Shown one piece after another: positions 11,275-17,461 of a DNA stretch of 42,807 bases. The first letter of the stretch is position 1. Every line of letters begins with the position of its first letter. Source of the stretch: Rhodopirellula sp. (GTDB lineage: Bacteria; Planctomycetota; Planctomycetia; Pirellulales; Pirellulaceae); NCBI GenBank assembly GCA_024644085.1, contig JAHELS010000032.1, forward strand, positions 1 through 42,807, in the 5' to 3' direction. A model generated the notes under the pieces. The model had not been told where the DNA came from, did no database searches, and saw only the letters and a list, made by a program, of their open reading frames with translations. Position numbers and translations under genes: made by a program.

Positions 11275-11303
11275 AAAACCCCGCTCCCAGTGAGCGGGGT
11301 TTT
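11275..11303 (+). terminator. intrinsic terminator after the Ala/Gln-rich protein gene
   Basis: A perfect 12-bp stem (AAAACCCCGCTC ... GAGCGGGGTTTT) with the 5-nt loop CCAGT, followed by TCTC, lies 33 bp after the stop codon. The A-tract/T-tract flanks could let it work in both directions, but no gene reads into it from the right. Confidence 0.93.
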
Positions 11304-11398: not shown

Positions 11399-11445
11399 TC
11401 CGGCATTGCCTGTCGAACTCTATTCTCACAATCCAGGCGTTTGCA

Positions 11446-13230
11446 ATGCACCAGACACGGCGTCCTCCCTCTTCTGCTGTTGTTCCTCCGCCGGTCGAAC
11501 CACCACCCCTTGCATGGTCATCGCCACCACCGATTACCCGATCCGATGGAATTTGGCGGAGAGCGATGTCGGTCATTGACCGTTTCGGTCGATACTCCAT
11601 CGTCGCTGGTGTCTGTCTGATCGCGGGATTGTTATTGGGTGATTTGAAGACCGCCTCGATGCAATTCCTCGCGGCTGTCCCCAGCCCGATCGAAGCACGG
11701 GTCCTGTCCAGTTTTCCGGCGGACGTGGACCTGTCCAGCGAACGACCTGACGCGATCGATGAAGCAACCGACCTGCCGACGGAGACGGAGGTAGTTCAAT
11801 CCGTTTCCGAGATCGCAGAGCTTGACGCTGGCCCGGTTTGGACCGAGTTGGAATCCCCTTTCGCCCAGCAAGGCGCCTACCGCGGTGATGTGGCCGCGGC
11901 AGAGGAGAGGCACGAGCTTGAAGTAACCGCGGACGCGCCGAGTCCTCACCACGACGAGTTCGCGACTGAGAAAGCGGATGAGGCAGCGGATCCGAGCGAA
12001 GACCAAACCGCGACCATGGTCGAGCCTGCAGAAACGCTCACCGCGAAAAAGGATCTCCCTGTTTCAATCAGTGCGTTATCGATGCTGAAATCCCAGTCGT
12101 CGATCATGCCCGCTACTTGTGAAGACGGCAAGTGTCCGAAGCCCGGTAAGACACTCGGCACTTCGTTGCAGTGGGCCGACACGCCATCGGACGCCTACCG
12201 CGATGCGGGCGAGGACGAGAAGCTTGTTTTCCTGATACACGTTTCGGGGAATTTCGAGATCCCCGGCTTTACGTGAAACAACGCATCCAAATACAGGGCG
12301 GGCGCTCTGTCAGACCCCGAAGTTGGCAAACTTTTTGCCAAGCATTTTGTTTCCGCACATCAGCAAGTCGGCGATTTTCGCGCGATCAAGGTTGGTAACC
12401 AGGTCCAGAAGAACGGCGGCAACGTCGCCAGCCATTTCCTGACCCCCTCAGGCCGCTTGATTCACAGTGTCACGGGTCCCGTTTCGGCCCAGACGCTCTT
12501 GCACGAAGCCAAATGGGCGATCGAGATGTACGCAGAGGCGAAAGCCAAACCCTACAAATCGCGTTTGCAATACGTCGCCTCGGCACACCAGCAGGCCAGT
12601 TGGTCACCGCTGAGCAATCAGGATCGAAAGGTTCACGAATTGCTGGCGACCAAGCCGCTGCCCCATTTGCAGCTGGTCTATGAAGAGATCTTCGAGACGA
12701 TTCTTGGCCAACGTGTCAGCAACGCGGGACCGCGACTGGCCCAGGCTTCTGCGCGGCTCGATTATGCCAGGCGGACCGGTCGTCCAATCCTGTTTGTCTT
12801 GCACGATGGTCATCATTGGTCGGCACCCGGATACCAACCGGTCACTCGCCAGCTAATCAACCAGTACGCGGTGATTGTAATGCCGCTGCGCGAGGCGCCG
12901 GCGTTGAGTCAGATCACCGGACAACCGCCATTTCAGTCAAATGGGGCCGCGCGGCCGCTGTTCGTTGTCGCGCGCAGCGATTGCGAGCAGGTTCGATCGG
13001 TGAGCGGTTCGAGCGAACCTGCTCTCGTCGAAGCTCTGGCTCATGGTTGGGCCGACACGCTGGAACGGCGGCCGCCGAGCGTCGGTGCGTTGGTGCGAGC
13101 CCAGCGGCTGCTTCGTAGTGTTCACCCGCCCACCGCCGATCGAATTCGGGATTTGACGATTCGAGTGCGAGAGGAGGCGCAAGCGGAGCGGCAGAAAAAA
13201 TTGGCGGCGGATAAACTCGCCGCGTCGTAG
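11446..13230 (+). CDS. membrane-anchored thioredoxin-like protein with in-frame TGA (candidate selenoprotein)
   Basis: One reading frame of 595 codons runs from 11446 to TAG 13228-13230, broken only by TGA at 12274-12276 (residue 277). A Pro-rich N-terminus precedes a membrane anchor (YSIVAGVCLIAGLLLGDL). A long acidic Glu/Ala/Thr spacer and a CEDGKC element come next. The thioredoxin-like domain follows: strand KLVFLIHVS, GNFEIPGFT, the TGA, then NNASKYRAGALSDPEVGKLF and the late strands FLTPSGRLIHSVTG. A Gln/Arg-rich helical domain ends the protein. The fold is complete only if the TGA is read through; the ATG at 12457 would start in the middle of it. With the hairpin just downstream, I read the TGA as selenocysteine. 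An alternative start is ATG 11566, with GGAG upstream and the anchor at its N-terminus. A nonsense mutation or sequence error remains possible. Confidence 0.7.
12274..12310 (+). promoter_or_regulatory. candidate bacterial SECIS element at the TGA codon
   Basis: After TGA 12274-12276 an RNA hairpin forms at 12293-12310: ACAGGGC pairs with GCUCUGU (7 bp, one G-U) around the tetraloop GGGC. The loop starts 23 nt after the UGA and begins with G. The published bacterial SECIS model expects an apical loop 16-37 nt from the UGA with a G in its first two positions, so both criteria are met. No second TGA lies in frame before the end of the gene. Confidence 0.6.
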
Positions 13231-13256
13231 GTCAACGCCATTTTCGAGGCAATCTG

Positions 13257-14099
13257 ATGTCACGAATACTTGCCAGCACATTGATGGCCGCCGTCGTAAT
13301 TCACTCGGTCTCGATCGAATCGGCCCACGGCGATGTGATCCGCCTTGATAACGGCGACACAATCAACGCCACGTTGATCCGCATTAGCGAGTCGTCGCTG
13401 AAGATTCGGCACGAGATCTTTGGAGAGCTTGAGATTCCACGTGAACGCGTTCGCGCGATCATCCTTGGCGATGCACCGGAAGGCGGCGGGGGTGACGTTG
13501 TCGAGGAAGGGGAACTCGAAACCGAACCGGAGACACCCAAAGAAGTCATCGACCGATTGGTCAATCCGGACTTCGGCCCTGACGCGGTCAAAGAACTGAC
13601 CGCAGATGCGAAGCGACAATCCTCGCCCGAGGATGTGATCGAACAACTGCGCCGCGAAGGTGTCGATTCGCAATTGAAAGATCGTCTGCATCTGATGCTG
13701 CCCGGATTCGGAGCACCCGAGGTCCAGGGGTATTTCAATGACACCGTCGGCGGTTTGATCAGCGGTTCGGTAACGATCCAGGATGTTCGCGACGACGCAA
13801 TCGACGCCCGTGATCAGTTGAAGGAAATCATGGACGACCTCGGACCCGATGCCGTTGCGCTGCGCGGCTACTACGGCATCCTCGACAACTTCATCCAAAA
13901 GACGGAGCCGAAGAAAACGGGCGCCAATCGCCCGGCCTCGGCGAAGGAGCCGCGCCCGAGCCTCCCAGGAAAGTCGAGCCTCCCAGGAAAGTCGAGCCTC
14001 CCAGGAAAGTCGAGCCTCCCAGGAAAGTCGAGCCCGGCCAAGAAATCCGGGCCCGGTAACCAGGGGGCCGATGAGAGTTCGCTGCCCTCGGTGGATTGA
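13257..14099 (+). CDS. secreted protein of unknown function with SLPGKS repeats
   Basis: 280 aa. The signal peptide ends near SAHG|DVI. Residues about 25-70 (DVIRLDNGDTINATLI, then IFGELEIPRERVRAI) form a small beta domain of the type found after signal peptides in many planctomycete proteins. An acidic linker and a helical middle part follow, with PEDVIEQLRREGVDSQLKDRL, GGLISGSVTIQDVRDDAIDARDQL and ALRGYYGILDNFI. The C-terminus is basic and disordered, with four perfect SLPGKS repeats. It begins 26 bp after the thioredoxin-like gene on the same strand, so the two are probably co-transcribed, and it ends 3 bp before the convergent PhoD-like gene. No function is assigned. Confidence 0.75.
   Translation: MSRILASTLMAAVVIHSVSIESAHGDVIRLDNGDTINATLIRISESSLKIRHEIFGELEIPRERVRAIILGDAPEGGGGDVVEEGELETEPETPKEVIDRLVNPDFGPDAVKELTADAKRQSSPEDVIEQLRREGVDSQLKDRLHLMLPGFGAPEVQGYFNDTVGGLISGSVTIQDVRDDAIDARDQLKEIMDDLGPDAVALRGYYGILDNFIQKTEPKKTGANRPASAKEPRPSLPGKSSLPGKSSLPGKSSLPGKSSPAKKSGPGNQGADESSLPSVD
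13959..14030 (+). repeat. perfect 18-bp tandem repeat, 4 copies (SLPGKS)
   Basis: Four identical copies of agcctcccaggaaagtcg sit in frame in the 3' part of the gene. Complete identity at synonymous positions shows recent expansion. A diverged fifth unit (SPAKKS) follows. Confidence 0.95.
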
Positions 14100-15788: not shown

Positions 15789-17384
15789 TTATTTTTTGTT
15801 TAGCTCGTGTTGTAGCTCGGTCAACAATTGAGAGCGTGGCATTCGCGGCCGCAGTCGTCCATCGCGTCCAATCACGAGGGTCGTTGGGTAGGCGTTCACT
15901 CCATACGCTTTGGTCGTTTTCCCACCCGGAGCGTCGATCGCGATCGGGTAGGACAGGTTGTGGCGTTCAATATCGCGATTAACATCATCGGGATCGTATT
16001 GGTGGTCGGTATGAATACCAATCACGACCAATCCGTTCGCCACGTGCTGCTCGTGCAGCATCCGGAGGACCGGGAACTCACGCTTGCAGGGTCCGCACCA
16101 AGTGCCCCAGAAGTTCATGACGACGACCTTGCCTCGAAGTTCCTGGATCGAAAGTGGTTGTGTGTGATGCCAGGTTGCGCACGCCAGCTCCGGCAGCGGA
16201 CCCTCGGTAGTAATCAATTTTTCTTGACGTTTGGATCGTACAGAAATGCGTAGTGCGGGATCGTATGTTAATGTCCCGAATCCGTTTGGATCATCAGCAC
16301 GAATGCTCGCGATGCCCGGGCCGCGTCTGGACGATGAAACGGTGGCCCGATAATCCACATGCGGAACCAGGCCCGTGAACCGGAATGTCCCGTCGTCGCT
16401 TGAGTAGACGATCGCCTGGCGGTACGAGGACCGTCTCGTTCCCTCGCGCAGTTCCATCCAAAGTTGGACGGGAACATGTGCGACCGGATTTTTATCTTCG
16501 TCGACGACCATCCCGGACGCGGAACATGCTGAATGCAATTGCAGCGTCAGATCCTTGCTTTTTCGTGTGGCGGTGGTCACGCCAACTTCACCGCTGGCAA
16601 AGTCAACGGCGAAAATCGCTTCGCTGCGCGGCGAGAAACTGGTCGGCGAAATCGTGAACCGTCCCGTCTGGTCGGTCAGGGTCAGTTCTCCTTTCCATTG
16701 ATGGCCCACCACGACATCGGTGGCCGCCTTGCCGTCGGACCCGAGGATCTGTCCCGCAAGACGGGGCCTTAATGAGACCGTCACGGGCAGGACCTGGATT
16801 TCCTCTTGGGGCTCCACACGAACCTTCAAAGGAGTGTCCACGATTTCCCATTCGCTGCGTGAATCGATCGTCACGATCAAATCGATCGCGGGACACTTGA
16901 TCGAATATTCACCGCGTTCGTCGGACGTGCCGCGAGCGACGACGTACCGTGATTTCGGATCGACCACGTGGATCGCGACTCCCGCGGCCCCGTCACCACT
17001 TTCCTCTTCAACAATCTTTCCGCGAATCGTTCCCCCTGGAGAGAGCGTGAACTCGGGGATCTCTCGCTGGGGATGCTTCCCAGAGAGGGTGTGCGAAGGT
17101 GGCGTCACGAACAGCGAAGGATGTTCGACAAATAGAGTTATCCCATCGCTCGATTCCAATCGAAGATTCCCATACTCCCGGCCGTCGAAGTTAACGTCAA
17201 TTTTTCGACGACGGCCGTTGTCCAGTCGAATCGTGACCTTCGACTGTCGAACCTCCGCCGGATCGTGATCGCAGTGGATACGAAATCGGTAAACGCCCGC
17301 AAGAGGCTGACCATCCTGGGCCGATAATGGCGCGAGGATCACAAACAAGAAGAGGGACGCAAGCGCTGATTCCAGTCGGGCCAT
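15789..17384 (-). CDS. exported carboxypeptidase-regulatory-like protein with C-terminal TlpA thioredoxin domain
   Basis: 531 aa. The start at 17384 gives a signal peptide ending LSAQ|DG; the in-frame extension to 17450 is not needed. Several Ig-like CarboxypepD_reg units fill residues about 30-370, seen as GGTIRGKIVEEESGDGAAGV, ARGTSDERGEYSIKCP, LAGQILGSDGKA and ASGMVVDEDKNPV. The C-terminal roughly 140 residues are a TlpA/AhpC-like thioredoxin domain with active site FWGTWCGPCKREFPVL and a cis-Pro region at AYPTTLVIG. Likely a periplasmic or cell-surface disulfide reductase carried on Ig-like spacers. Such fusions recur in planctomycetes. Substrates are unknown. Confidence 0.88.
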   Translation of the reverse strand: MARLESALASLFLFVILAPLSAQDGQPLAGVYRFRIHCDHDPAEVRQSKVTIRLDNGRRRKIDVNFDGREYGNLRLESSDGITLFVEHPSLFVTPPSHTLSGKHPQREIPEFTLSPGGTIRGKIVEEESGDGAAGVAIHVVDPKSRYVVARGTSDERGEYSIKCPAIDLIVTIDSRSEWEIVDTPLKVRVEPQEEIQVLPVTVSLRPRLAGQILGSDGKAATDVVVGHQWKGELTLTDQTGRFTISPTSFSPRSEAIFAVDFASGEVGVTTATRKSKDLTLQLHSACSASGMVVDEDKNPVAHVPVQLWMELREGTRRSSYRQAIVYSSDDGTFRFTGLVPHVDYRATVSSSRRGPGIASIRADDPNGFGTLTYDPALRISVRSKRQEKLITTEGPLPELACATWHHTQPLSIQELRGKVVVMNFWGTWCGPCKREFPVLRMLHEQHVANGLVVIGIHTDHQYDPDDVNRDIERHNLSYPIAIDAPGGKTTKAYGVNAYPTTLVIGRDGRLRPRMPRSQLLTELQHELNKK

Positions 17385-17461
17385 GAATCGACCTGCCGAA
17401 CGGTAGAAGAAAAGAGGTGTTGGGCCAATGATAACAGCCCGCGACGCCATGGTGGGATCGC

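Follow-up and report, generated by a model that had tools for sequence, protein, structure and literature searches.

Does the single TGA that interrupts a long open reading frame in this planctomycete DNA end a gene, or is it read as an amino acid? The window, by which we mean the whole 42,807-nucleotide stretch analysed, corresponds to contig 118 in an assembly of 6.9 Mb from a planctomycete (completeness 94.57%, contamination 5.5%), and a first-pass annotation had proposed that one of its genes encodes a selenoprotein. As that annotation described, one frame stays open from the ATG at 11446 for 276 codons up to the TGA and for 317 codons beyond it, to a TAG that ends at 13230. The two features at issue are:

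11446-13230, forward strand: whole proposed selenoprotein gene of 594 residues with selenocysteine (Sec) at position 277; a single TGA interrupts the frame, and homologues cover both halves.
12274-12276, forward strand: TGA, proposed to be read as Sec277; TGA is found in 95 of 99 profile matches and in 51 of 51 loci of the clade described below.

Were the TGA a true stop, the locus would consist of two adjacent genes or a pseudogene, and a second gene could begin at a separate start, the next in-frame one being at 12457 (a TTG, and not the ATG first reported there). However, pN/pS over the 60 codons from the TGA to 12457 is 0.08-0.39 in six pairs, a sign of protein selection that agrees with their earlier description as protein-like; such selection is similar before (0.08-0.35) and after (0.08-0.39) the TGA. 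Furthermore, the reading frame runs past the TGA in all 43 homologous loci found in named genomes, and in the predicted models a single domain needs both sides of it. A true stop is thus highly improbable. A base error, which would also have undone the proposal, is ruled out, since the same TGA recurs in many separately assembled genomes.

The same assembly contains selA, selB, selD and a tRNA-Sec, the machinery found in genomes that encode selenoproteins. selB (329.5 bits, cut-off 242.25), selA (497.1 bits, cut-off 267.9) and selD (239.4 bits, cut-off 125) lie on contig 278, consecutive and on one strand in the order selB-selA-selD, and the tRNA-Sec, with anticodon TCA (UCA), lies on contig 360 (76.1 bits, gathering score 47). 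A second tRNA-Sec match above the gathering score is a tRNA-Ser and was rejected. selD lies in the latter half of a frame of 716 codons (contig 278, 21626-23776) and is therefore fused to another domain. The contamination of 5.5% counts against the selenoprotein reading; GC content is 0.585 in the window, 0.576 in 12 kb of contig 278 and 0.572 in 4 kb of contig 360, and the 4-mer correlation is 0.94 between the window and contig 278 and 0.95 between the two halves of the window. An fmdB gene of the same genome (TIGR03129; contig 6, 5710-6960, reverse strand) has an in-frame TGA in UHGP. The fmdB family appears, with the motif UHxP, in a list of selenoproteins (PMC13188914) and has been reported as a selenoprotein in a Rhodopirellula (PMC4807772). 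Because this TGA is of a known Sec type, UGA is very probably decoded as Sec at other genes of this genome as well.

Homologues retain the in-frame TGA. The protein is present in 19 of the 197 relatives searched, in 13 of these 19 (own genome counted) in the FTUNNA form, and, out of 392 genomes across the phylum, 66 gave a match to a profile built from 15 members. The 43 loci from named genomes came from an alignment search whose pattern, FTCNNA, was presumably back-translated using Cys codons; by title all belong to Planctomycetota or its subgroups, and all are MAGs. A single-protein scan of the named genomes gave 34 stretches, none of them a relative, and a plasmid search for relatives gave no match. 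Since the profile queries carried C at the Sec column, Cys forms were not disfavoured. Among the 99 profile hits on fetched loci (duplicates between collections counted), the four without TGA have Ser (three) or Cys (one) at this column, and Arg, Trp and Gln were never seen. Of thirteen further weak or stop-free matches, 11 have Cys and two, both weak, have Asp (13 of the 23 stop-free phylum matches were examined, the remaining ten having E values of at least 2.0e-4; L144 and L080 are the same place). The 84 distinct TGA loci, three of them added by later matches, comprise 51 FTUNNA or close, 25 USAGH or related and eight UTNA loci, these type labels being assigned to TGA loci only.

The 51 loci, all from Planctomycetota, have the TGA within T-U-N-N-A or nearly so, and group in a midpoint-rooted tree of 98 sequences as a single clade (support 0.76) that contains no other sequence. 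Across 44 aligned rows, the residues T, U, N, N and A never vary, and neither do 16 further positions. Neither the searches with Cys queries nor this tree yielded a Cys form of the clade, such homologues being usual for selenoproteins without defining them. The three Ser forms (L037, L039 and L047) stand apart, and their genomes, G068 and G076, have selA over the cut-off. Together with the machinery, these results bear on a further alternative, in which the UGA is read as an ordinary amino acid through a reassigned code or near-cognate read-through. In that case too the frame would be open, with selection on the protein before and after the TGA, but selA, selB, selD and tRNA-Sec are all present, TGA terminates other genes, for example the homologues L086 and L087 (L085-L087 are contigs of L024-L026), and distant relatives mostly have Cys at the aligned position. 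We give this alternative as little credence as a true stop.

Genomes carrying the gene tend to carry the machinery as well. selA is over the cut-off in 12 of 13 FTUNNA genomes versus 98 of 184 others (p = 0.007, Fisher, kinship ignored), and the thirteenth FTUNNA genome (G144) has selB at 368 bits. Within the genus itself, 14 of 22 genomes have selA over the cut-off and five of those 14 have the gene, which is found in none of the other eight, one of which (G010) has a selA fragment. Across the phylum sample, selB, judged from E-values, is over the cut-off in 46 of the 50 genomes whose match bears a TGA versus 189 of 342 (p = 1.3e-7, Fisher, kinship ignored), the 50 genomes being typed from profile matches and their Sec column confirmed by reading in part of them. 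The four exceptions (G341, G349, G473 and G529) are 76-90% complete.

Just 3' of the TGA lies the hairpin that the first-pass annotation had called SECIS-like, and its stem, loop and distance of 23 nt from the UGA are as described there:

12293-12310, forward strand: SECIS-like hairpin of 7 bp with the loop GGGC at 12300-12303; synonymous positions are conserved and pairs kept, and the energy is ordinary.

The stem pairs 12293-12299 with 12304-12310, with one G-U among the 7 bp. In the bacterial SECIS model the loop has 3-9 nt and the upper stem 4-16 bp, a G occupies one of the first two loop bases at 16-37 nt from the UGA, and the energy is at most -7.5 (PMC13188914); the hairpin agrees in all of these (loop 4, stem 7, GG, 23 nt, -9.3 kcal/mol). 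Its stability carries no weight as evidence: the fold energy has a z of -0.04 against dinucleotide shuffles, the 51 loci have a mean z of -0.49 against synonymous shuffles, and energy was rejected as an indication of Sec, being no better than in shuffles. Its synonymous conservation does carry weight. Across codons +5 to +12, the window gene and three relatives have 0 of 48 synonymous differences, versus about 60% on the flanks (102/170 before the TGA, 181/308 after), which points to an RNA signal at the SECIS position; among 121 eight-codon windows, the twelve lowest in synonymous differences all begin at codons +1 to +12.

Pairing is also maintained. In 16 of the 51 loci, picked for the window's hairpin type, which biases their pair counts towards it (the set leaves out L035 and L058 with their shifted hairpins), 93.8% of cells pair, versus 30-57% when the stem is slid. 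Only one pair varies in a compensatory manner, as G-C, A-U and G-U; the covariation score is reached by 7 of 500 shuffles, but the count of pairs changed on both sides by 108 of 500, which weighs against the hairpin. When the 51 loci are split into two hairpin types, a split made with the pair counts themselves, the 25 of the window's type (some truly of the other type) keep 6.16 of 7 pairs versus 4.54 expected, and the 26 with loop CGUGU or CGGGU keep 5.73 of 6 versus 4.12 expected from synonymous shuffles. Similarly, 33 loci of sister families keep 5.88 of 6 pairs versus 3.29 expected, the loop opening with CGUG in 29. An Rfam scan of 11400-13300 gave three matches, all below gathering scores. 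The first-pass reading of the TGA at 12274-12276 as a selenocysteine codon is thus strongly supported, by the machinery, by homologues that keep the TGA and by the conserved hairpin codons, and we suggest that SelB and tRNA-Sec would decode it, guided by the hairpin.

What would Sec do in this protein? Its predicted architecture, in addition to the two features above, is as follows:

11593-11649, forward strand: hydrophobic stretch, residues 50-68, a likely membrane anchor (limits set by eye).
11650-12120, forward strand: acidic spacer, residues 69-225 (157 residues), net charge -24.
12133-12135, forward strand: Cys230, likely partner of Sec; aligned Cys in 37 of 43 rows, role proposed from the alignment.
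12163-12543, forward strand: thioredoxin-like domain holding Sec, about residues 240-366, from models (Foldseek E 2.6e-4, probability 1.00).
12787-13068, forward strand: second thioredoxin-like domain, about residues 448-541, without Sec or CxxC, from the strand and helix order in the model.

Hydropathy over 19 residues peaks at 1.84 at residue 52, and a charge of +4 precedes the hydrophobic stretch. This arrangement, the acidic spacer and the apparent signal peptides (by eye) with which several homologues begin suggest that the Sec domain probably lies outside the cytoplasm. An AlphaFold2 model of residues 197-594 from 43 sequences (the window and 42 of the 43 named loci; L092, cut by its contig, is left out) has a pLDDT of 88.8 and a pTM of 0.81. 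In this model, a thioredoxin-like domain with Sec just before a helix is followed by helices and then by the strand and helix order of another such domain. The earlier reading of a thioredoxin-like domain that needs both sides of the TGA is therefore borne out in prediction, with the correction that a second domain of this kind follows the first. Modelled alone, the Sec domain has a pLDDT of 85.2 and gives four Foldseek matches at E <= 0.001, the best being 3f9u, followed by DsbH and a DUF255 protein; DsbD-gamma and AGR2 match above E 0.001. Foldseek with residues 197-594 returned nothing at E <= 0.001, and the best match in a PDB sequence search is 2kuc (E 0.0036). The predicted models thus have the core strands and helices of a thioredoxin fold, in which a helix begins at the active site.

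Sec occupies the nucleophile position of this fold. Profile alignments place it over the leading Cys in CHWC, CQKC and CRWC, with Ala at the second Cys, in agreement with the first-pass placement of the TGA at the position of a redox residue. Cys230 is 47 residues upstream of Sec. Close kin (L118, L120 and L125) are without the upstream Cys but have Cys-Phe-Thr-Sec (CxxU), and because the group that lacks it has CxxU instead, the upstream Cys is likely to be the partner of Sec; as one event in close kin, this replacement is a hint. In L127 the upstream Cys is absent in the stretch read, and in the UTNA group Cys directly precedes Sec in six of eight.

We therefore consider it probable that the gene encodes a genuine membrane-anchored selenoprotein in which Sec acts as an extracytoplasmic nucleophile of the thioredoxin type with redox chemistry, a redox role being likely from these sequence comparisons. 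In such a protein, the anchor would sit in the cytoplasmic membrane, and the acidic spacer would place both thioredoxin-like domains on its outer side. The first of these would have Sec instead of the nucleophilic first Cys of CxxC, with Ala at the second position. The selenolate could attack a disulphide, a peroxide or another oxidised substrate, and the conserved upstream Cys could resolve the product to give an intramolecular Se-S bond, which a partner would then reduce. Alternatively, the protein may be a selenoprotein that is no selenol oxidoreductase, Sec binding a metal or carrying selenium and the domain serving as a binding or chaperone module. It has neither CxxC nor UxxC, and its Foldseek matches include AGR2/AGR3 and UAS domains, as this alternative would lead one to expect; set against it, Sec occupies the nucleophile position, and the CxxU seen where the upstream Cys is missing is consistent with a redox pair. 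We regard this alternative as unlikely and favour the redox nucleophile.

The neighbourhood was searched for conserved genes hinting at a substrate, and no flanking family occurs in more than six of 44 stretches (ORFs of at least 90 aa, the Sec gene and overlapping shadow frames set aside). A terminator-like 12-bp inverted repeat ending in T (11275-11303, by eye) lies in the gap that separates the Sec gene from the ORF upstream of it. The next downstream gene (13257-14099, forward strand) encodes a protein that looks secreted and has SLPGKS repeats towards its end. The third gene downstream by the ORF list (15789-17450, reverse strand) has an ordinary thioredoxin-like stretch at its C terminus (FWGTWCGPCKREF).

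Is the family known? No selenoprotein model in NCBIfam release 20 matches any of the 15 members at E up to 1, and the cut-off of no NCBIfam selenoprotein family is reached. Against Pfam, the whole window protein gives no match at E up to 1, and the 15 members give weak matches to Thioredoxin_7 (four members, best E 3.8e-4) and DsbH (six members, best E 0.012), none reaching a gathering cut-off. The active site of Thioredoxin_7 and DsbH proteins is CxxC. Thioredoxin_7 (PF13899), Thioredox_DsbH/DUF255 (PF03190), DsbH and DsbD-gamma have a like fold, by prediction, and Sec aligns with their first Cys; the present family differs from Thioredoxin_7/DsbH in having Sec-x-x-Ala in place of CxxC (U-N-N-A in all 44 rows), a second thioredoxin-like domain, a long spacer and scores below the Pfam cut-offs. 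The VPGUxxT selenoproteins (NF041382, NF041383) likewise have Sec in a thioredoxin-like protein, but none of the 15 members, nor L106 or L127, matches them, and two sister-family members score 13-16 bits against a cut-off of 275. GrdA is a different protein from that of the window gene's family. It is also a selenoprotein family without known Cys homologues (PMC1088965, PMC1914089), but has a CxxU motif (table of PMC13188914). The Trx7/PDZ selenoprotein (NF041199), by its name also thioredoxin_7-like, again has CxxU (PMC13188914), and none of the 15 members matches it.

In the accessible parts of a 2026 inventory of 119 families and subfamilies, there is no UNNA or FTU motif and no recognisable equivalent entry (PMC13188914). 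The mostly open-access literature on planctomycete selenoproteins, in which, going by titles and abstracts, one study centres on them (PMC4807772), gave no description of the family, table S9 of that study lying outside the comparison. The first-pass remark that no known selenoprotein family fits agrees with NCBIfam, Pfam and the accessible inventory, and the family is likely to be undescribed; we read it as new and apparently Sec-only.

Sister families with a conserved in-frame TGA were also seen (USAGHSLRAVTLS, UTNARLARTVLFS and ULAAH/ULGGH; L060, L062-L067 and others), and six members scanned reached no NCBIfam or Pfam cut-off. One group (L132-L136 and L144; SCANSRFFRTVLYA) has Cys; selB is found at E <= 1e-87 in four of its six genomes and, in the other two, not at 1e-50. 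These six Cys forms (SCANSRF) nest among UTNA forms (path supports 0.98, 0.24, 0.81 and 0.07), a possible Sec-to-Cys change. It is conceivable, although we would not count on it, that FTUNNA, USAGH, UTNA and related forms make up a Planctomycetota superfamily of thioredoxin-like selenoproteins in which Sec is near-obligate, and in which Cys in the SCANSRF group would be derived, since it nests among Sec forms. Against this, the tree has shallow support and a midpoint root, and five CxxC relatives, together with one USAG-type sequence, adjoin the FTUNNA clade (supports 0.89 and 0.90). Because of these neighbours and the midpoint root, the tree is compatible with either Sec or Cys as the first state of the superfamily. 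If Sec is indeed near-obligate, the chemistry of the site would need selenium, and searches based on Cys homologues would have missed the superfamily.

Selenoprotein families without Cys homologues are considered extremely rare: GrdA is the sole example named in a study of the Sargasso Sea (PMC1088965), and is joined by one uncertain case in a survey that covered 191 genomes (PMC1914089). The Sargasso study required at least two Cys homologues (PMC1088965), and deep-Sep retains a candidate given either a known homologue with Sec or two or more homologues with Cys in its top ten hits (PMC12013277). Since searches often depend on Cys homologues in this way, a Sec-only family would escape their filters, and its gene would be split by gene callers. 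The 51 distinct loci, together with sister families that also use Sec, suggest that planctomycete selenoproteomes are under-counted, and with this family it becomes possible to test what reaction at a thioredoxin-type site does not tolerate Cys.
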